From assembly GCA_017455685.1 (NCBI GenBank), contig JAFSZH010000044.1:1-41039 (forward strand): a DNA stretch of 41,039 bases. The letters are read 5' to 3'. Below the pieces are notes generated by a model. It had not been told where the DNA came from. It was given only the letters and a program-made list of their open reading frames with translations, and made no database searches. This document shows, piece after piece, positions 227-41,039 of the stretch. Numbering within the stretch: position 1 is the first letter of the stretch; each line of letters opens with the position of its first letter. The DNA comes from Oscillospiraceae bacterium (GTDB lineage: Bacteria; Bacillota; Clostridia; Oscillospirales; Oscillospiraceae). The position numbers and the translations under genes are program-made.

Positions 227-3200
227 TCACGCGGCCTTGTTTTCCAGCTCGGCGGCGCGTTTGGCGTAGATCTCGTTGACTTCCTTTTCGCAGTTGAAGA
301 GGATGCCGTAGAGCTTGATCCACTCCAGGGCGGCCTGCTCGGTCTCCTCATCCGCGGAGCGGTCCACGAAGCCGGGGATGCCGAAGCCCTTCAGGCCCCC
401 AAAGACCTTGGCCATCTCGGCGGCCTTTTCGTCGGAGAGGTCTTCGATGTGAATGGCGTCCTCCGCATCGGGATCCGCGCCGGTGACGCGCGCGTCGGCA
501 AACTGTCCGGGCAGGATGACGATACCGCACTTCTGACGGATCAGCTGCGCCATTTCCAGCTCCTCGGGGGCTTTCATGGTGATCATGCCCTCGACGCCGG
601 AATCGAAGCAGGTCATGGTGATCTTCTCCATCAGCTCGGGCAGTTCAAGCTCTCTGAGCATGGTGAAGAGCTCTTCGGTACCCACGCAACCGTTTTCCAC
701 AGGCTGCTGCACCACCTGGATGTCCTCGTCCAGCGGCGCCGGGACTTCCTTGCCCTCGGGCACGACCAGATAGCGAGCCACGTTGATCACGTTGATCACC
801 ACGTAGCCGTCCTCGTAGCGGTAGATCTCAAAGGCCTTGCTCTCGTCGTTCTCATCCGTGGAGAGATAGGTAAGGCCGGGGATCTTCTGCTCGGGCTTGG
901 TGGTGTTGTCCGTCTCCGCCAGGGCGCCGGGAATGTATGCATAGATGGAATAGGCGATCTCATGAGGCGTGCTCATGGCCGTGGTGCAGCCGCGAATCGT
1001 GTTGGGCGTATTCAGCCGGATGGGGATGGTGGCGGTGGACTTGCCTCCGCCCTGGGCGGTGTAATAGGTTCCGCCGCTGGCCTTGATGTAAGTGTAATTG
1101 TTGCTGGTAAAGCTGACCACCGCGTAGGATCTGCCGTTCTGAACGATGATCTTTTCAAGAACGATCGAAGTCCTGCCGCTGCCGCCGGACCAGTTGAAGG
1201 TCTCGGGCGTATACTCGCCGTCGGGCAGGACGGTGGAGTTGTCCACCCAGGCAGTGCTGCCCTGGTTGTCCGCCTCGGCAGGCGGAGGATCTTCGCCGGG
1301 ATCCTCGCCCGGGTCCTCCCCGCCGTTGCCGTTTTCCACCGGCGTCAGGGAAGCGCTGTTGAAGGTCAGGGTACGGTCATACCACTGGTCTTTGCTGACG
1401 GAGTGGGCCGCCACGTCCAGCGGCGTATCCAGCGCCGCCACGGGAATGGTGAAGGTGTATTTTCCCTCCTCGTCCGGGACGTAGGGGATGGCGTCCTCGT
1501 CGTTGGCGTCCTCCTTCTTGCCCATGAACAGCTTGTCATAGCCGGTGCCGCTCAGGGTGATCACCGCGGTGTAATTGCCGTTTTCCGCCGTCAGCACCGC
1601 CTTGACCACCTTGAACATGTTGGAGCTGGAGGTGACGTCCACGGTGTAGTCGCCGTCGGCGATCTCTTCCTGGATCGGGGTTGCCGTATCGCTGTTGAAG
1701 GTCAGGGTACGGTCGTACCACTGGTCTTTGCTGACGGAGTGGGCCGCCACGTCGATGGGCGTATCCAGCGCCGCCACGGGAATGGTGAAGGTGTATTTGC
1801 CCTCCTCGTCCGCCACGTAGGGGATGGCGTCCTCGTCGTTGGCGTCCGCCGCCTTGCCCATGAACAGCTTGTCGTAGCCGGTGCCGCTCAGGGTGATCAC
1901 CGCGGTGTAGCTGCCGTTTTCCGCCGTCAGCACTGCCTTGACTACCTTGAACATAGTGGAGCTGGAGGTCACGTCGATGGAATAGTCGCCGTCATCCAGC
2001 GGCTCGTCCGCCGTGGGTTTTTCCACCAGGGCGGCCACCGCGTCCGTGATGGCCTGCGCCATGGCGTCCACCTCGTCCTGCCTGTCGGCAGTCAGGCCGC
2101 GGACCACGGCGTCTCTGGCGTCGATAACCGCCTGGGCGGTCTCGTCCGTATAAAGGGTCAGATCCTCCGGGATGGCCGCCAGAGCCGCGTCCACCGCCGA
2201 ATAGTCCGCCAGATTCGACTCAGGCACGCTGACCGTCAGAGAGTATTCCGTGAACCGTCCGCCCATGGCCGTGCTGTATGCCCGCACCGCCATAGCGTTG
2301 CCCAGGGAAACGGGGATGTTCGTGAACACCACGCCGCTTTCCGCCGCCGTCGCGGGATAGAATGTGGCGTTGGCGTCCAGCGTCGTGGTCTTGTCGCTGC
2401 TGAAAGCGATATCCGCGTACGCTTTCCCGTCGGTCACGGTCACCAAAGCGCAGCTGATGGTCAGCTTGCTGGAGGAATAGAGCTCCGTGGGATCGGGCGT
2501 ATACGTGCCGTCGTCCAGAGTCGTGCTGTTATCCACTGCGCTGCTCTGCGGCGTTCCGCCGGAATTGGGCACGCTGACGGTCAGGGAATACCCCGTGATC
2601 TTCCCGCCCATGGCGGTGCTGTACGCCCACACAGCCATGGCGCTTTCCAGCGAAACGGGAATGTTCTCAAACACCACGCCGCCTTCGACTGCGGTGGCGG
2701 GATAGAACGTTCCGTTGGCGTCCAGCATGGTCGTTTTATCGCTGCTGAAGGCGATATCCGCGTAGGCCTTGCCGTCCGTCACAGTCACCGAGGCGCAGCT
2801 GATGGTCAGTCTGCTGGAGGAATAGAGCTCCGTGGGGTCGGGAGTATATGTGCCGTCGGCGAGCATGGTGCAGTTGTTCACCGGGCTGCTCTGGGGAACG
2901 CTCCCCTCATCGGCCACGCTGATTGTCAGTGTATATTCGTTGAATCTTCCGCCCATGGCCGTGGTATAGGCCCGCACATCCATGGGGCTGCCAAGGGAAA
3001 CGGGAATGTCCGTAAAGACCACGCCGCTCTCCGCCGCCGTCGCGTCATAGAATGCTGCGTTGGCGTCCAGGGTGGTATAGTTGGCGCTGGAGAAGGCGAT
3101 ATCCGCATAGGCCCTGCCGCCCGTCACGGTCACCGAAGCGCAGCTGATGGTCAGCTTGCTGGAAGTGTACAGAGTCGTGGGGTCGGGCGTATACGTGCCG

Positions 3201-4960
3201 TCGGAGAGCATGGTGAGATTGTTCACCGCGCTGCTCTGGGGCTGCTCCGCCGGATCCTCCACGCATACGGTCAGGGTGTATTCCGTGATCTTTCCACCCA
3301 TGGCAGAGCTGTACGCCCACACCGTCATGGCAGTATTAAGAGAGACGGGGATGCTCGCGAACACCGCGCCGCTTTCCGTAACAGTGGCGGAATAGAACGT
3401 GCCGTTGGCGTCCAGCATGGTCGTTTTATTGCTGCTGAAGGCGATATCCGCGTAGGCCTTGCCGCCCGTCACAGTCACCGAAGCGCAGCTGATAGTCAGC
3501 TTGCTGGAGGAATAGAGCTCCGTGGGATCGGGCGTATACGCGCCGTCGTCCATCGTAGTGCTGTTGTCCACCGCGCTGCTCTGGGGCTGGCTGCCCGTTC
3601 CGGACACGCTGATCGTCAAGGTGTATTCGTTGAATCTTCCGCCCATGGCCGTGGTATAGGCCCGCACGTTCATGGCTCTGTTCAGAGAAACGGGGATATT
3701 TGCAAAGACCACGCCGCTCTCCGCCGCCGTCGCGTCATAGAATGCGGCGTTGGCGTCCAGGGTGGTAAAGTTGGCGCTGGAAAAAGCGATATCCGCATAG
3801 GCCCTGCCGCCCGTCACGGTCACCGAAGCGCAGCTGATGGTCAGCTTGCTGGAGGTATACAGAGCCGTGGGGTCGGGCGTATACGTGCCGTCGGAGAGCA
3901 TGGTGAGATTGTTCACCGCGCTGCTCTGGGGCTGCTCGTTTTCCGGGGCGCTTTTCTGTCCCTCTTCGTTCCCGTTCCGCTCGGGCTCGGTGTTCAGCAG
4001 CACGGGAGCATTATTCTCCTTCAGCGTGATGGGCTGGTCGAGCAGCTGCTTCACGGAAACCTGAGAAACGTTGACAGCGGTCACGCCAAGAGTGGCGGAG
4101 ATCTCCTCTTTCTTTTCCGGTTCCTGCTTTTCCTCTTCCTCTTTCTTCTCCTCTTCTTCGGAGAAGATCAGGGTGAAGGTGTATTTCACTCCCTCGTCCT
4201 CGGCGTCGCCGGTGAATACGATGACCGGGTTTTCTCCGCCGAGAACCACAGGCACTTTTTCAAACACCGCGCCGTCGTCCTGCCGGGCCTTGAACAGCCT
4301 GCCCGCCGCGTCCAGGAGGGCCGCGCCCTCTCTGGCGCTGCGGATCGCGGCGAAGGCTTTCCCGTCGGATACGATGATCTCCGGCACGGAAAGATCCTGC
4401 TTCTCACCGGAAACGGTCACGGTATAATCCGTGCCGGCGGCGTAGACGCCGTCTTCCAGCTCGCAGGCGTTGTCAACGGAATTTGTAACGCTCTTCCGTT
4501 CCTCCTCGGACTCTTCTTCCTCGGGCTCTTCTTCCTCGGACTCTTCTTCCTCGGGCTCTTCTTCCTCGGACTCTTCTTCCTCGGGCTCTTCCTCCTCGGA
4601 TTCCTCTTCCTCGGATTCTTCTTCCCCGGATTCTTCTTCCTCGGATTCCTCCTCGGATTCTTCCTCCTCGGATTCTTCTTCCTCGGATTCTTCTTCCTCG
4701 GATTTCTCCTCCTCGGATTCTTCCTCCTCGGATTCTTCTTCCTCGGATTCCTCTTCCTCGGATTCCTCTTCCTCGGGCTCTCCCTCCTCGGATTCCTCTT
4801 CCTCGGCGTCTTCTTCCTCGTTGTCCTCGTTCAGGATCTCTTCCTTTTCGAGATCAGGGTCGCCGCTTCCCTTTGCGGGCGAAGCCGCCAGCGCCGCCGT
4901 GTTCAGCAGAGACGCCAGGACCATGATCAGAGCAAGGATACGGATGAGTTTCTTCTTCAC
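227..4960 (-). CDS. Secreted modular NEAT/Ig-like repeat protein with C-terminal solute-binding-protein lobe, cobalamin-riboswitch controlled
   Basis: 1577 residues. The GTG at 4960 is chosen because AAAGGAGG lies just upstream and a signal peptide starts there (KKK, hydrophobic core, ALA cleavage near residue 25). Order, approximate: Glu/Ser-rich low-complexity 44-155; a degenerate module 165-280; five tandem modules of about 115 residues (344-915), each with a DGTYTPDP start; a FIVAR-like helical segment 917-985; two near-identical modules with KDQWYDRTLTF ends (988-1202); another DGEYTPETF module 1236-1344; then about 1353-1577 resembling the N-lobe and connecting helix of clostridial Fe/B12-type ABC solute-binding proteins (YLVVPEGKEVP, EWIKLYG). 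No LPXTG, SLH or C-terminal membrane anchor is visible. The upstream cobalamin riboswitch implies repression by B12, so capture of corrinoid at the cell surface is the best guess. Heme or iron binding is the alternative, since the modules look NEAT-like. Confidence 0.85.
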   Translation of the reverse strand: MKKKLIRILALIMVLASLLNTAALAASPAKGSGDPDLEKEEILNEDNEEEDAEEEESEEGEPEEEESEEEESEEEESEEEESEEEKSEEEESEEEESEEEESEEESEEEESGEEESEEEESEEEEPEEEESEEEEPEEEESEEEEPEEEESEEERKSVTNSVDNACELEDGVYAAGTDYTVTVSGEKQDLSVPEIIVSDGKAFAAIRSAREGAALLDAAGRLFKARQDDGAVFEKVPVVLGGENPVIVFTGDAEDEGVKYTFTLIFSEEEEKKEEEEKQEPEKKEEISATLGVTAVNVSQVSVKQLLDQPITLKENNAPVLLNTEPERNGNEEGQKSAPENEQPQSSAVNNLTMLSDGTYTPDPTALYTSSKLTISCASVTVTGGRAYADIAFSSANFTTLDANAAFYDATAAESGVVFANIPVSLNRAMNVRAYTTAMGGRFNEYTLTISVSGTGSQPQSSAVDNSTTMDDGAYTPDPTELYSSSKLTISCASVTVTGGKAYADIAFSSNKTTMLDANGTFYSATVTESGAVFASIPVSLNTAMTVWAYSSAMGGKITEYTLTVCVEDPAEQPQSSAVNNLTMLSDGTYTPDPTTLYTSSKLTISCASVTVTGGRAYADIAFSSANYTTLDANAAFYDATAAESGVVFTDIPVSLGSPMDVRAYTTAMGGRFNEYTLTISVADEGSVPQSSPVNNCTMLADGTYTPDPTELYSSSRLTISCASVTVTDGKAYADIAFSSDKTTMLDANGTFYPATAVEGGVVFENIPVSLESAMAVWAYSTAMGGKITGYSLTVSVPNSGGTPQSSAVDNSTTLDDGTYTPDPTELYSSSKLTISCALVTVTDGKAYADIAFSSDKTTTLDANATFYPATAAESGVVFTNIPVSLGNAMAVRAYSTAMGGRFTEYSLTVSVPESNLADYSAVDAALAAIPEDLTLYTDETAQAVIDARDAVVRGLTADRQDEVDAMAQAITDAVAALVEKPTADEPLDDGDYSIDVTSSSTMFKVVKAVLTAENGSYTAVITLSGTGYDKLFMGKAADANDEDAIPYVADEEGKYTFTIPVAALDTPIDVAAHSVSKDQWYDRTLTFNSDTATPIQEEIADGDYTVDVTSSSNMFKVVKAVLTAENGNYTAVITLSGTGYDKLFMGKKEDANDEDAIPYVPDEEGKYTFTIPVAALDTPLDVAAHSVSKDQWYDRTLTFNSASLTPVENGNGGEDPGEDPGEDPPPAEADNQGSTAWVDNSTVLPDGEYTPETFNWSGGSGRTSIVLEKIIVQNGRSYAVVSFTSNNYTYIKASGGTYYTAQGGGKSTATIPIRLNTPNTIRGCTTAMSTPHEIAYSIYAYIPGALAETDNTTKPEQKIPGLTYLSTDENDESKAFEIYRYEDGYVVINVINVARYLVVPEGKEVPAPLDEDIQVVQQPVENGCVGTEELFTMLRELELPELMEKITMTCFDSGVEGMITMKAPEELEMAQLIRQKCGIVILPGQFADARVTGADPDAEDAIHIEDLSDEKAAEMAKVFGGLKGFGIPGFVDRSADEETEQAALEWIKLYGILFNCEKEVNEIYAKRAAELENKAA
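1355..1998 (-). repeat. Two near-identical tandem domain-coding repeats (offset 336 bp)
   Basis: The segments starting at 1356 and 1692 on the plus strand are nearly identical over roughly 300 bp. They encode two modules that each run from a DGDY start to a WYDRTLTFNS end. The near-identity at DNA level indicates a recent duplication within the surface protein gene. Confidence 0.85.
2215..3931 (-). repeat. Five tandem domain-coding repeats, period about 345 bp
   Basis: The segment coding PQSSAVNN or PQSSAVDN recurs near 3930, 3585, 3240, 2895 and 2548, giving a period of about 115 codons. Units 1 and 3 resemble each other most (TSSKLTISC, YTTAMGG), as do units 2, 4 and 5, so the array probably grew by duplication of pairs. 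Confidence 0.85.
4499..4830 (-). repeat. Low-complexity tandem repeat coding Glu/Ser-rich linker
   Basis: Reiterated 15-nt units (TCTTCTTCCTCGGAC and variants) encode EEESE/EEEPE runs over about 110 residues. Such an array is prone to slippage. It probably forms a long extended, highly acidic stalk near the N-terminus of the secreted protein. Confidence 0.85.
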
Positions 4961-5025
4961 AGTGGTTCCTCCTTTTCGCCCCGGCGGGGAACCCGGCCCC
5001 GACGGCGGCGATGCTTTACAGAAAT

Positions 5026-5056
5026 AAAAAAAGATCTGTTTTCCGAAGAAAACAGA
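5026..5056 (-). terminator. Intrinsic terminator, expression platform of the cobalamin riboswitch
   Basis: On the minus strand a 9-bp perfect stem (5048-5056 with 5035-5043) with a TTCG loop is followed by seven U (A-run 5026-5032). It lies about 50 nt after the aptamer and about 65 nt before the GTG start. This placement suggests the riboswitch acts by premature transcription termination when cobalamin is bound. Confidence 0.85.
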
Positions 5057-5104
5057 CCTGCAGAAGGCTCGTCCTGCTCTGCTTTCCTCGGAAGCGGGCA
5101 TAGA

Positions 5105-5276
5105 ACGCTTTCAGCAGGTTTCCTGGCTTGCGGATCAGCAAACGATGCGGACCTTCTCATGTCGTCGACACAATGGCATATCCCGCCCGTTCTCCCCGCT
5201 TACAGTGACCGGATCGCTCAGGATCTTCCCCTGATTCCCTTTTCCCGTGTCCCTTCGGGCACGGCACTGAAAGCGT
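5105..5276 (-). promoter_or_regulatory. Cobalamin (B12) riboswitch aptamer
   Basis: Read on the minus strand, the region has the conserved B12-aptamer blocks in the right order: AAAAGGGAATCAGG, then CACTGTAAGCGG, then TGCCATTGTG with GAGAAGG, then CCGCAAGCCAGG with AAACCTGC. The P1 stem is a perfect 10-bp pairing of ACGCTTTCAG (5276 to 5267) with CTGAAAGCGT (5114 to 5105). A promoter precedes it and an intrinsic terminator follows it. It controls the surface protein gene 227-4960 and probably the downstream lipoprotein gene, which marks the locus as B12-responsive. Confidence 0.94.
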
Positions 5277-5313
5277 CGGTTCCCCCGGGCCATGCCCGGA
5301 AAAAACCGATGAT

Positions 5314-5990: not shown

Positions 5991-7586
5991 ATGAGTAAAT
6001 TCATTTTTGTGACCGGGGGCGTGGTGTCCGGGCTGGGCAAGGGCATCACCGCCGCGTCTCTGGGCCGGCTGCTGAAGGCCCGGGGCCTGCGGGTGGCCGC
6101 CCAGAAGCTGGACCCCTACATCAACGTGGACCCGGGCACCATGAGCCCCTACCAGCACGGGGAGGTCTACGTCACCGAGGACGGCGCCGAGACCGACCTG
6201 GATCTGGGCCACTATGAGCGCTTCATCGACGAGGATCTGAACAAATACTCCAACCTGACCACCGGCAAGGTCTACGCCCGGGTGTTGGAAAAGGAACGCC
6301 GGGGGGAATACCTGGGCAGCACGGTGCAGATCATCCCCCACGTGACCGACGAGATCAAGCATTTCATCTACCGCGTCGGCAAGAAGACCGGCGCGGACGT
6401 GGTGATCACCGAGGTGGGCGGCACCACCGGCGACATCGAGAGCCAGCCCTTTCTGGAGGCCATCCGGCAGGTAGGCCTGGAGCAGGGGCGACAGAACGTC
6501 CTTTACGTTCACGTGACGCTGCTTCCCTATCTGAAGGCCTCCGGCGAACACAAGTCCAAGCCCACCCAGCACTCGGTGAAGGAGCTGCAGGGCATGGGCA
6601 TCTCCCCGGATATCATCGTGCTGCGGTGCGACGAGCCCATCGAGGACGAATCCATCTTCCGGAAGATCGCCCTGTTCTGCAACGTGGAGAGCGACTGCGT
6701 CATCGAGAATGTGACCCTGCCCGTGCTGTACGAGGCCCCGCTGATGCTGGAAAAGGCCCATCTGGGGGATATCGTCTGCCGGAAGCTGGGTATCGACGCC
6801 CCGGCCCCGGACCTGCGGGACTGGGAAGAAATGGTGGCGAGCGTCAAGCGCCGGGGCAAACACGTCACCGTGGCGCTGGTGGGGAAATACGTCCAGCTCC
6901 ACGACGCGTACCTCTCCGTTTCGGAGGCGCTGCGCCACGCGGGCTACGCTGTGGGCGCGAAGGTGGAACTCCGCTGGGTGGATTCGGAGACCGTCACCGA
7001 CGAAAACGCCGCCGAGATTCTCTCCGGAGCGGACGCCATCGTGATCCCCGGGGGCTTCGGCAGCCGGGGCATCGAGGGCATGATCTCCGCCGCCCGCTAC
7101 GCCCGGGAAAACCGCGTGCCCTATCTGGGGCTGTGCCTGGGCATGCAGATCGCCGTCATCGAGAACGCCCGCCACGCCGCCGGGCTGGCAGGGGCCAACT
7201 CCCGGGAATTCGACGAAAACTCCCCTCACAAGGTCATCGACTTCATGCCCGGACAGAGCGATGAGATCGACAAGGGCGGCACGCTGCGTCTGGGGGCCTA
7301 TCCCTGCCGGGTGCAGCCGGGCTCCCTGCTGGAGAAGTGCTACAGCGCGGCGGAGATCTCCGAGCGGCATCGGCACCGCTACGAATTCAACAACGATTAC
7401 CGGGAGCGCCTCGCCGACGCGGGGCTGATCCAGAGCGGTCTCTCCCCGGACGGACGGCTGGTGGAGGTGGTGGAGCGCGCCGACCATCCCTTCTACATCG
7501 GCGTGCAGTATCACCCCGAGTTCAAGAGCCGTCCCAACCGGCCCCATCCCCTGTTCCTGGGGCTGCTCCGGGCCGTGGAGAAGTAA
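5991..7586 (+). CDS. pyrG: CTP synthase (glutamine-hydrolysing)
   Basis: 531 residues, the normal length. It makes CTP from UTP, ATP and glutamine in the cytoplasm. The N-terminal synthetase domain has the P-loop [10 protein letters not shown] (9-18, Lys17) and the [15 protein letters not shown] segment near 64-78. The C-terminal class I glutaminase has the nucleophile Cys382 (LGLCLGMQ) and the His508/Glu510 pair (YHPEF). The ATG at 5991 follows AAGGAG; an in-frame ATG at 5955 is rejected as lacking a site. Unusually for a housekeeping gene, the best upstream promoter lies about 490 bp away, beyond the divergent DUF6951 gene. Confidence 0.97.
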
Positions 7587-20832: not shown

Positions 20833-21978
20833 ATGAATGAGAAAGAAAAGCTGTTAAAGGAACGGCTGAAGCTGTTTGACGACGCCATGCGGATCGAGGA
20901 AACACGTCGAGTCCCCTGTGTCTCCAACGCCTTCACCTGGAAGATTTTTGACTCCGATCTACACATTTCCGTGCTTGAGGCCACCACCCAATGGGACACC
21001 GACATAATGGAGCGTATCGTCCGGGAGCACATTGAGCGTTACAATTTCGATGCATATCTTGACCTGGGTACCCGTGACAACTTCTCTTACAACCAGATCC
21101 TGGGCAGATCTGAACATTATATCGATGAGTCCGGCAACATAAGCGCAAAGGACGACCCAAAGCTCTTTCCGGAGGAATATGAGGCTGTAACGGAAAACGC
21201 AACCATGTTCCAGTGGTGTGTTGTCGCTCCCCGAGTCTACGGTTCCCTCACCTTTGGACAGATCGAAGATGCGGTCAAGGCACTGATCAACTACACCGCC
21301 TATTACGATCGGATGAACAACATTGTCCACAGGGAATATGGCGTTCCGGCACTAGCCCAGCGGCTACTGATGCATCCCACGGACAACCTGATCAGCTATT
21401 ACCGCGGCTTGAAGGGCTTTAGCTTGGACATGCGCCGAAACCCGGAAAAAATCGAGGCATATGTGGAGAAAAACTCGACAGGCTTTCTGGAAACTGCGAA
21501 ATATTATCTACAGATGCCCCGTGAGCAGGAGCTTTTCGGTATCTATACGGGCTTTCTTGGTCATAACATCATGAATGGTAAGCAATTTGCTCGCTTTTTC
21601 TATCCCGTTTGGAAAAAAGCGATGGATCTCTGTATCGAGAACGAAAAATCCATGATGATCTACGCAGAAGGCTCCACCGTGCGGATTCGTGAATTTCTCC
21701 AGGATATTCCCAAAGGCTATCTCTGCATATTCCCAGAGACAGATGACCTTTTTGACCTGCGCCGGGCATGTCCCAACGCCTGTATCGCAGGGGGAATGTC
21801 GGTGGATATGCTGGGGATTTCCACAAAGCAGGAATGCGTGGACGCCGCTAAAAACTTTGTAGACAATATGGGTCCCGGATATATCTTTTCACAAAACAAA
21901 ATGATGACCTACCGTCGGGACGGTACCCGAGAAAACATGCTGGCCGTCCAGGAAGTGGTCCTGCAAAACAGATATTAA
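20833..21978 (+). CDS. Uroporphyrinogen decarboxylase (URO-D) family protein, probable corrinoid-linked methyltransferase
   Basis: 381 residues. The C-terminal half has the URO-D barrel landmarks (FARFFYPVWKKAMDL, IFPETDDLFDLRR, GGMSVDMLG, GPGYIFSQNKMM). Heme biosynthesis is unlikely: no other heme genes are present, and the gene sits with transporters and LysR regulators. Most such accessory URO-D proteins in anaerobes are MtaA/MtbA or O-demethylase-type methyltransferases that move methyl groups to or from a corrinoid or tetrahydrofolate. No corrinoid protein gene is in the island. The start follows AAGGAGGTTC. Substrate unknown. Confidence 0.75.
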   Translation: MNEKEKLLKERLKLFDDAMRIEETRRVPCVSNAFTWKIFDSDLHISVLEATTQWDTDIMERIVREHIERYNFDAYLDLGTRDNFSYNQILGRSEHYIDESGNISAKDDPKLFPEEYEAVTENATMFQWCVVAPRVYGSLTFGQIEDAVKALINYTAYYDRMNNIVHREYGVPALAQRLLMHPTDNLISYYRGLKGFSLDMRRNPEKIEAYVEKNSTGFLETAKYYLQMPREQELFGIYTGFLGHNIMNGKQFARFFYPVWKKAMDLCIENEKSMMIYAEGSTVRIREFLQDIPKGYLCIFPETDDLFDLRRACPNACIAGGMSVDMLGISTKQECVDAAKNFVDNMGPGYIFSQNKMMTYRRDGTRENMLAVQEVVLQNRY

Positions 21979-40526: not shown

Positions 40527-41039
40527 TTGAACGACGCGAAAAAGATATTGGAACAGGTCAGCGACGGGTCCCTCAGCGTGGACCAGGCGCTGCTGCGGCT
40601 CAAGCTGGCCCCCTTTGAGGACCTGGGCTTCGCCAAAATCGACCATCACCGCGCCCTGCGCCAGGGGACGGCCGAGGTGATCTACGGCGCGGGCAAGACC
40701 GCCGAGCAGATCGCCGGCATCCTGCGCGCCATGCGGCAGCACGGAGAAAATACCATCCTCGTCACCCGGCTGGACGCGGACAAGGCCGCCGCGCTCCGGG
40801 AGGAGTTTGCCCCGGACTACCACGCCGACGCCCGGCTGGCCATCGTGGGCAGCGTACCCGAGCCGGACGGACTGGGCAAGATCGTGGTGGCCACCGGCGG
40901 CACCAGCGACATCCCTGTGGCGGAGGAAGCGGCCAGGACGGCCGAGATCCTCGGCAACGAGGTCGTACGTCTGTATGACGTCGGCGTGGCGGGACTGCAC
41001 CGGACGCTTTCGCATCTGGACGACATCATGAGCGCCAGC
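40527..41039 (+). CDS. larB: Nickel-pincer cofactor biosynthesis protein LarB (partial, 3' end outside window)
   Basis: 171 codons visible. LarB carboxylates and hydrolyses nicotinate adenine dinucleotide in the first step to the nickel-pincer nucleotide. FAKIDHHRALRQGTAEVIYG, YGAGKTAEQIAGIL, VATGGTSDIPVAEEAA and RLYDVGVAGLHR are characteristic of the NCAIR mutase-like family. TTG at 40527 is preferred because AAGGTGAG lies at the right distance; an in-frame ATG at 40509 would leave only about 9 nt of leader and no ribosome binding site. The cofactor user may be a LarA-type racemase or another enzyme outside the window. Confidence 0.88.
   Translation, partial: MNDAKKILEQVSDGSLSVDQALLRLKLAPFEDLGFAKIDHHRALRQGTAEVIYGAGKTAEQIAGILRAMRQHGENTILVTRLDADKAAALREEFAPDYHADARLAIVGSVPEPDGLGKIVVATGGTSDIPVAEEAARTAEILGNEVVRLYDVGVAGLHRTLSHLDDIMSAS

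Follow-up and report, generated by a model that had tools for sequence, protein, structure and literature searches.

What does a secreted protein of 1577 residues, assembled from repeated modules and encoded behind a cobalamin (vitamin B12) riboswitch, do for a clostridial bacterium? The question is raised by contig JAFSZH010000044.1 of an Oscillospiraceae bacterium (assembly GCA_017455685.1), a stretch of 41,039 nucleotides, hereafter the window, which is the entire contig C12 of genome G000 (1.89 Mb, 72% complete). Sequence comparison makes it likely that the protein serves as capture arm of an uptake system that takes in B12-type tetrapyrroles and is repressed by B12. The preliminary description of the locus, a giant modular surface protein headed by a B12 riboswitch, was confirmed as a whole. 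Specifically, a covariance search recovered the full aptamer of family RF00174 at positions 5096-5286 of the minus strand, the strand of the gene and of all its parts given below, with 101.5 bits against a curated cut-off of 31.5 (E 1.9e-24) and a match to all 189 model positions (1-189), which bears out the B12 control assigned to the gene and its system. The terminator proposed for the expression platform was also found, in the interval between aptamer and start codon: an intrinsic terminator with a 12-pair stem and a T run at 5059-5032 (minimum free energy of the stem -15.9 kcal/mol, z -2.2). The start codon, GTG at 4960, follows about 70 bases past the stem. A promoter had been claimed together with the riboswitch, but no promoter passed a consensus sigma-70 scan of this region.

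The gene (227-4960, stop at 227) encodes, in this order, a signal peptide, a Glu-rich stalk, a divergent module (A) of a family that we call type 2, five tandem type-2 modules (B1-B5), a FIVAR-like helical piece, two NEAT domains (type 1), a last type-2 module (B6) and the N-terminal half of a solute-binding protein (SBP). The signal peptide (4880-4960), recognized by eye in the translation, has no lipobox Cys, and no Cys occurs in the first 45 residues. Neither an LPxTG- nor an NPQTN-type sortase signal was found in the protein, whose C-terminal end is the half-SBP. The Glu-rich stalk described before is seen in the translation at 4496-4852. Module A (4163-4492) was detected with profile A3 (independent E-value 7.8e-9); it is a row of profile A1 and not of A3. 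B1 (3587-3931), B2 (3242-3586), B3 (2897-3241), B4 (2552-2896) and B5 (2213-2551) together cover 2213-3931, and B1-B4 are 77-82% identical to B5. The FIVAR-like piece (2006-2212) is present as claimed, but its match to the FIVAR region of StrH, a protein of solved structure, is weak (E 0.11-0.53). The two NEAT domains lie at 1670-2005 and 1340-1669 (together 1340-2005), and B6 at 938-1249. The earlier totals of seven related modules and two others hold, but the layout had to be revised, since six of the seven precede the FIVAR-like piece and the seventh, B6, follows the NEAT domains. The proposed solute-binding-protein lobe (230-883) is supported by similarity to an SBP on contig C55 of the same genome (31% identity over query residues 1-211, E 1.6e-19). 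A search of 150 family genomes with this half gave matches in 20; apart from its own gene, the matching frames are about 370-710 residues long. Searched as a whole, the window protein gave only weak sequence matches to solved structures and, in NCBIfam, only matches under cut-off, most of them over the Glu-rich stalk. Pfam matches to SBB_T7, DUF7695 and C6 were all under their cut-offs and were discarded.

The kinship of the modules to NEAT domains, also part of the preliminary description, was upheld. PF05031 scored 40.6 bits on the whole protein (cut-off 32.8) over two stretches, the best at residues 1003-1091; each type-1 domain alone reached 20.3 bits in the genome search, under the same cut-off. 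The type-1 profile matches the solved NEAT-annotated chains 4h8p/4h8q (E 0.006). In the genome search the NEAT matches within the window gene fall on its two type-1 modules only, and none of the type-2 modules (A, B1-B6) scored over the PF05031 cut-off. The type-2 family has no Pfam name, and its profile found no credible relative among solved structures. It is nevertheless homologous to type 1 (hhalign E 3e-14, probability 98.2), and the type-2 hidden Markov model matches both window NEAT domains (E 1.7e-8 and 6.5e-8). A PF05031 genome search over 60 relatives gave no match over cut-off, only weaker ones, in G023 for example, and we therefore used module profiles of our own.

A late Tyr is invariant in 120 type-2 modules, and the residue four positions before it is mostly His (105; Leu 4, Tyr 3, Arg 3, Lys 2, Thr 2, Val 1). 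At this position the 105 type-1 domains carry Lys (91), Arg (9), Asn (1) or His (1), with the late Tyr missing in three. In heme-binding NEAT domains a Tyr-x3-Tyr pair in the last strand provides the heme ligands. This pair occurs in none of the 105 type-1 and in 3 of the 120 type-2 domains, with a register that is uncertain by one to two residues. MAFFT places the type-2 late Tyr on the type-1 late Tyr, hhalign places it one residue earlier, on a Trp, and matching the final strand instead would, by our own reading, shift it by two. Because the alignments disagree, the parallel between His-x3-Tyr and the Tyr-x3-Tyr of NEAT domains is suggestive only; the His could plausibly serve as a cobalt ligand. 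Among the tandem modules and B6 of the window protein, only B6 has kept this His.

The start of a further gene lies at 1-130 of the minus strand (ATG at 130) and is cut by the contig end; it is a lipoprotein by eye, in agreement with the lipoprotein gene noted before as next in line. This truncated gene is likely the SBP gene that resumes on C55, which opens inside an Ala/Pro-rich linker ahead of an SBP in a frame of 373 residues. On C55 the SBP (PF01497, 93 bits), a FecCD permease (PF01032, 261.4 bits) and an ATP-binding cassette (ABC) ATPase (PF00005, 107.7 bits) stand side by side and are followed by CbiD, an aminotransferase (CobD by eye), CobQ- and CbiA-like amidotransferases and CbiC. 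In relative G002 (locus L035) a single unbroken contig carries the riboswitch, a protein with B6 and half-SBP, SBP, FecCD, ATPase, CbiD, CobD and CobQ (by eye), and in relative G006 (L032) the gene of a 1305-residue protein related to that of the window stands ahead of those for SBP and permease (names by eye). Based on the gene order in these two loci we take C55, by synteny, as the continuation of the window operon, so that the transport genes expected to the left of position 1 are placed there, with the corrin-ring genes behind them. A protein with B6 and half-SBP occupies the position of the window gene in three other genomes of the genus (L032, L033, L035), and those of L033 (cut by the contig end) and L035 have no tandem modules. 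Gene calling was codon-scored and suited to G+C-rich DNA; most gene names in the loci of relatives were given by eye, with Pfam or NCBIfam checks on C55, on contig C33 and on genome G303.

Genome G000 has four B12 riboswitches including that of the window. Behind the second, on C33, are an exported CbiK cobaltochelatase (224.7 bits against a cut-off of 26.2, with lipobox) and a NEAT-like lipoprotein that is 39% identical to the window NEAT. The third, neighbouring one precedes a BtuF-like SBP and an ATPase (both by eye) and FecCD (by Pfam). Type-2 modules were found in six of nine genomes of the genus, and besides the window gene 10 of the 11 module genes lie downstream of a same-strand B12 riboswitch, 8 of them within 5 kb; the riboswitch list for the genus was made with stricter filters, by which weak matches are lost.

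Further B12-linked loci were seen in the same genome and genus. Genes of a Dpp/Nik-like ABC transporter with a lipoprotein (by eye) stand directly behind a B12 riboswitch on contig C68 (L005) of G000, and similar genes (by eye) are downstream of one at 1-2941 of L036; both possibly serve cobalt or a chelate. L034, L036, L037 and L076, from the genus and from G281, show a second type of B12-linked operon (by eye), which begins with hem genes together with CobA/HemD (not in L034), CbiL and an ATPase and permease of the ABC-2 type, and continues with a signal-less CbiK, a membrane-anchored protein with type-1 and type-2 modules (type 2 only in L076) and SirC. At 6226-7557 (-) of L036 the type-1 module is split over two frames, by either a frameshift or an assembly error.

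To follow the system beyond the genus we used two samples. The named loci are the best 80 of at least 592 confirmed matches to a profile built from six modules of riboswitch-linked loci, and their riboswitch rate (a same-strand upstream B12 riboswitch in 69 of 80) is for this reason not unbiased. A fairer test is a scan of 391 evenly drawn Clostridia genomes with a profile seeded from the genus of the window. It found the type-2 module in 22 genomes, G000 included, and all 21 others have B12 riboswitches. Outside G000, a same-strand B12 riboswitch is found no more than 5 kb upstream for 20 of the 23 module genes, where 0.107 were expected; two more are 9.2 kb (G281:C86) and 10.5 kb (G407:C2, a sub-cut-off match) away. 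The order CbiK, type 1, type 2, SBP, FecCD, ATPase is complete in 67 of the 80 named loci, and the single parts were counted in 76 (CbiK), 77 (type 1), 74 (SBP), 74 (FecCD) and 72 (ATPase). Four of the 11 named loci without riboswitch (L104, L117, L141, L156) start at the end of a contig or close to it. The operon was seen in records of Faecalibacterium, Gemmiger, Blautia and Butyrivibrio, among others. The parts thus recur behind B12 riboswitches in other genomes, where the preliminary description had suggested looking for them. It had also been noted that no Firmicute system of this shape was known to have been described. This is consistent with our searches of the open-licence literature, which brought up no description of a system combining NEAT with a cobalamin riboswitch or CbiK with NEAT; the better unit, however, is a conserved and widespread operon, of which the window protein is a giant variant, rather than the giant protein alone. 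Another enlarged form of the capture arm is found in G274 (L084), where a secreted CbiK-bearing protein of 625 residues, a type-1 protein and a two-type protein of 804 residues stand in tandem behind one riboswitch. Module loci also occur in two records labelled Atopobiaceae (L166, with the whole operon, and L149), a family of the Actinomycetota; this might reflect inter-phylum transfer or a binning error.

A companion of the modules in most named loci is the exported CbiK. An export signal was recognized by pattern in 75 of the 76 copies in named loci (lipobox in 61, signal-like start in 14), and the remaining copy, in L166, is a lipoprotein by eye. Four His columns are invariant in all 78 CbiK segments. 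Two active-site His residues are named for Salmonella CbiK in the accessible part of PMC7689651, and they are presumably among these four. The frame at 2974-5664 of L041 matches CbiK three times and encodes an exported protein of 896 residues with the three domains in tandem. Of 27 genomes, 12 have a single strong match to CbiK, which is in each case the exported copy, and CbiX matches in these twelve fall on the same gene, with no separate CbiX; the fragmentary G390 and G551 gave no CbiK match. HemC and CbiX were searched in 23 chosen genomes that all carry the system, and HemC was positive in 11 of 14 control genomes. HemC is missing in 17 of the 23 (records of Faecalibacterium, Gemmiger, Butyrivibrio and Lachnospiraceae GAM79 among others) and in 11 of the 12 single-CbiK genomes, and for 9 of these 11 corrin-ring genes were seen behind the importer. 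In G303, CbiD, CbiF, CbiH, CbiJ, CbiE, CbiT and CobB score over their NCBIfam cut-offs; CbiC, CbiG and CbiK belong to the right families below them, CbiK with 261.1 against an equivalog cut-off of 400 and, in Pfam, with 289.1, far over cut-off.

CbiL and SUMT were searched with our own profiles in 15 fetched stretches, 14 of which contain cbi genes (L236 has none). Within these stretches, both were not found in 12 of the 14; CbiL is present in L235 and L241, and SUMT in L241. An all-frame repeat over these stretches and L075-L174 added only CbiL with SUMT (L076) and CbiL (L151). All 12 stretches lacking both encode CbiH and 11 encode CbiF, while the twelfth genome (G523) has CbiF in L079. G274 (L235) is without HemC and has CbiL. 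Taken together, the gaps at HemC, CbiL and SUMT, the retained CbiH and the export of the only CbiK suggest a ring that comes from outside and is loaded with cobalt outside the cell. The accessible part of PMC6461909 describes tetrapyrrole precursor salvagers, mostly host-associated Firmicutes, that have corrin-ring genes with the early steps missing, and the HemC-less single-CbiK genomes, as judged by HemC among the early genes, may belong to this class.

From the parts, their order, the riboswitches and the module kinship we infer repression, binding, hand-over and cargo as follows. With enough cobamide the riboswitch would end transcription; cobamide shortage would let the cell make the capture protein and, after it, the lipoprotein SBP, FecCD permease, ATPase and corrin-ring enzymes. 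The extracellular NEAT and NEAT-like modules would bind the ring, which could then be passed via the half-SBP domain to the SBP and the permease. In other Clostridia, shorter exported proteins carry these modules and are encoded next to the exported CbiK, so that a cobalt tetrapyrrole is the probable cargo of the wider system. This cargo may be a cobalt-loaded precursor, Co-sirohydrochlorin or Co-factor III, which is our tentative first choice, or a finished corrinoid, which is possible to a slightly lesser degree; some other cargo is rather doubtful. For the class we lean to the cobalt precursor, with the finished corrinoid a close second. The preliminary description had interpreted the protein as a candidate corrinoid-capture system; B12 control, NEAT kinship and transport genes stand, and exported CbiK together with the loss of HemC would fit a cobalt-tetrapyrrole precursor as well as or better than a corrinoid. 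At its fullest, and doubtful in this form, the proposal places the start of B12 synthesis outside the cell for many gut Clostridia. The ring would not be made; CbiK, as the only cobaltochelatase, would be sent to the surface, to insert cobalt into scavenged sirohydrochlorin or its methylated form, factor III; NEAT-like modules with His-x3-Tyr would pass the cobalt ring to the SBP-FecCD-ATPase importer; and this would feed the corrin pathway at CbiL or CbiH, with the window protein as a giant capture arm.

The strongest competitor is a receptor for finished corrinoids, whose modules would pick up cobamides or cobinamide in the gut fluid for import by a conventional BtuFCD system. The B12 riboswitch and the BtuFCD-like genes agree with it, CobQ, CbiA and CobD could also serve salvage, and B12-binding surface lipoproteins are known in Bacteroidetes, as the accessible parts of PMC8941943 and PMC12751083 report. 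It leaves unexplained, however, why 76 of 80 named loci encode an exported sirohydrochlorin cobaltochelatase and why corrin-ring genes follow the importer in genomes without HemC. Scavenging of heme or iron, with NEAT domains binding heme, exported CbiK removing the metal and B12 control being secondary, would draw on the kinship to PF05031 and 4h8p/4h8q and on Desulfovibrio CbiKP, which is titled a haem-binding protein in cited work and whose genes are reported, in the accessible portion of the source, behind a cobalamin riboswitch. Yet 69 of the 80 named loci have a B12 riboswitch upstream (with iron boxes left out of the search), cbi genes follow in the operons, and Tyr-x3-Tyr is scarce within the uncertainty of its register; on these grounds heme or iron was set aside as first-choice role and appears improbable.

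Importers of the FecCD/Peripla_BP_2 type as a rule take chelates and tetrapyrroles, and NEAT modules bind tetrapyrroles. Both speak against uptake of cobalt itself, in which exported CbiK would act as a cobalt-binding protein and the ABC system import cobalt or a cobalt chelate, a very remote explanation even though, according to the accessible part of PMC7689651, cobalt is bound by CbiK and genes for cobalt supply are likewise linked to B12 riboswitches. That the tandem modules form a mere stalk or adhesin on a B12-controlled operon is unlikely, and would be compatible with capture by B6 and the NEAT domains. It is favoured by the close identity of B1-B4 to B5, by the loss of the conserved His from B1-B5 and by the Glu-rich stalk, and opposed by B6 with half-SBP as the conserved part at the same position in L032, L033 and L035.

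Several observations weigh against tetrapyrrole capture under B12 control, or against an outside ring. The module genes of G265 and of contig C69 of G000 have no riboswitch match nearby, and L097, L106, L107, L113, L120, L149 and L157 lack a riboswitch without the excuse of a contig end; CbiF or CbiH is present on the fetched stretches of L106, L113, L120 and L157, whose operons may be arranged otherwise. In B1-B5 the His of the His-x3-Tyr pair is replaced by Arg or Lys, so these modules may be spacers. The join of C12 and C55 draws on synteny and matching gene pieces, without sequence overlap. The window operon, as far as it is seen, contains no CbiK, which stands behind another riboswitch on C33. 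HemC is present in 6 of the 23 chosen genomes (both Blautia records, G281, G290, G470 and G488), and its loss may be common in Clostridia generally, its rate being known for system-bearing genomes only. Several relatives in the genus encode, by eye, CbiL, a signal-less CbiK and hem gene products, so the organism of the window need not depend on an outside ring.

Isd-type heme uptake in Gram-positive bacteria combines NEAT receptors, an SBP and a FecCD-type permease. The present system resembles it in extracellular modules of the NEAT fold from which a tetrapyrrole would pass to an importer of SBP, permease and ATPase, and differs in its B12 riboswitch, the absence of LPxTG from the window protein, the exported CbiK of the wider system, the predominance of His-x3-Tyr over Tyr-x3-Tyr among type-2 modules, and an operon that continues into corrin-ring genes. 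It shares SBP (PF01497), permease (PF01032) and ATPase with BtuFCD, on C55 and in a similar set on C33, but adds NEAT and NEAT-like modules and, in the wider system, exported CbiK. The CbiKP cobaltochelatase of Desulfovibrio is located in the periplasm. Its genes, in Desulfovibrio and Oleidesulfovibrio, are behind a cobalamin riboswitch according to the accessible part of PMC11124144, and an exported CbiK behind such a riboswitch is the shared trait; the CbiK described here, in contrast, belongs to Gram-positive Clostridia, where it is secreted or a lipoprotein, and that part of the account names no NEAT modules or importer operon. The accessible text of PMC12654859 says of a rumen bacterium's cobaltochelatase, citing Desulfovibrio work, that it transports and loads sirohydrochlorin; BtuFCD is listed there, and no NEAT protein is named. 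BtuH and other B12-binding surface proteins of Bacteroidetes likewise represent B12-linked surface capture in gut bacteria, but in a different phylum and with different proteins, and the accessible parts of PMC8941943 and PMC12751083 mention neither NEAT modules nor CbiK. The salvagers of PMC6461909 share corrin-ring genes with early tetrapyrrole steps missing; they are a metabolic class and not an uptake system, and the accessible part of that source names no transporter for the ring precursor.

Two further frames stand out elsewhere in the window. One at 20833-21978 (+) resembles, by eye, uroporphyrinogen decarboxylase and MtaA-type corrinoid methyltransferases and lies near two LysR-like regulators and two transporters. 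A LarB-like frame (nickel-pincer cofactor synthesis, by eye) at 40578-41039 (+) runs off the contig end.

Cobamides shape gut communities, and a conserved operon linked to B12 riboswitches could supply the ring to bacteria that lack the early steps of its synthesis. If the proposal is true, the operon would be the uptake route of the tetrapyrrole precursor salvagers, whose ring source, for those lacking the later precursors, is left open in the accessible part of PMC6461909. NEAT-type capture would then extend from heme to B12 chemistry, a biosynthetic metal insertion would occur outside the cell, and a module family that so far has no Pfam name would gain a testable role.

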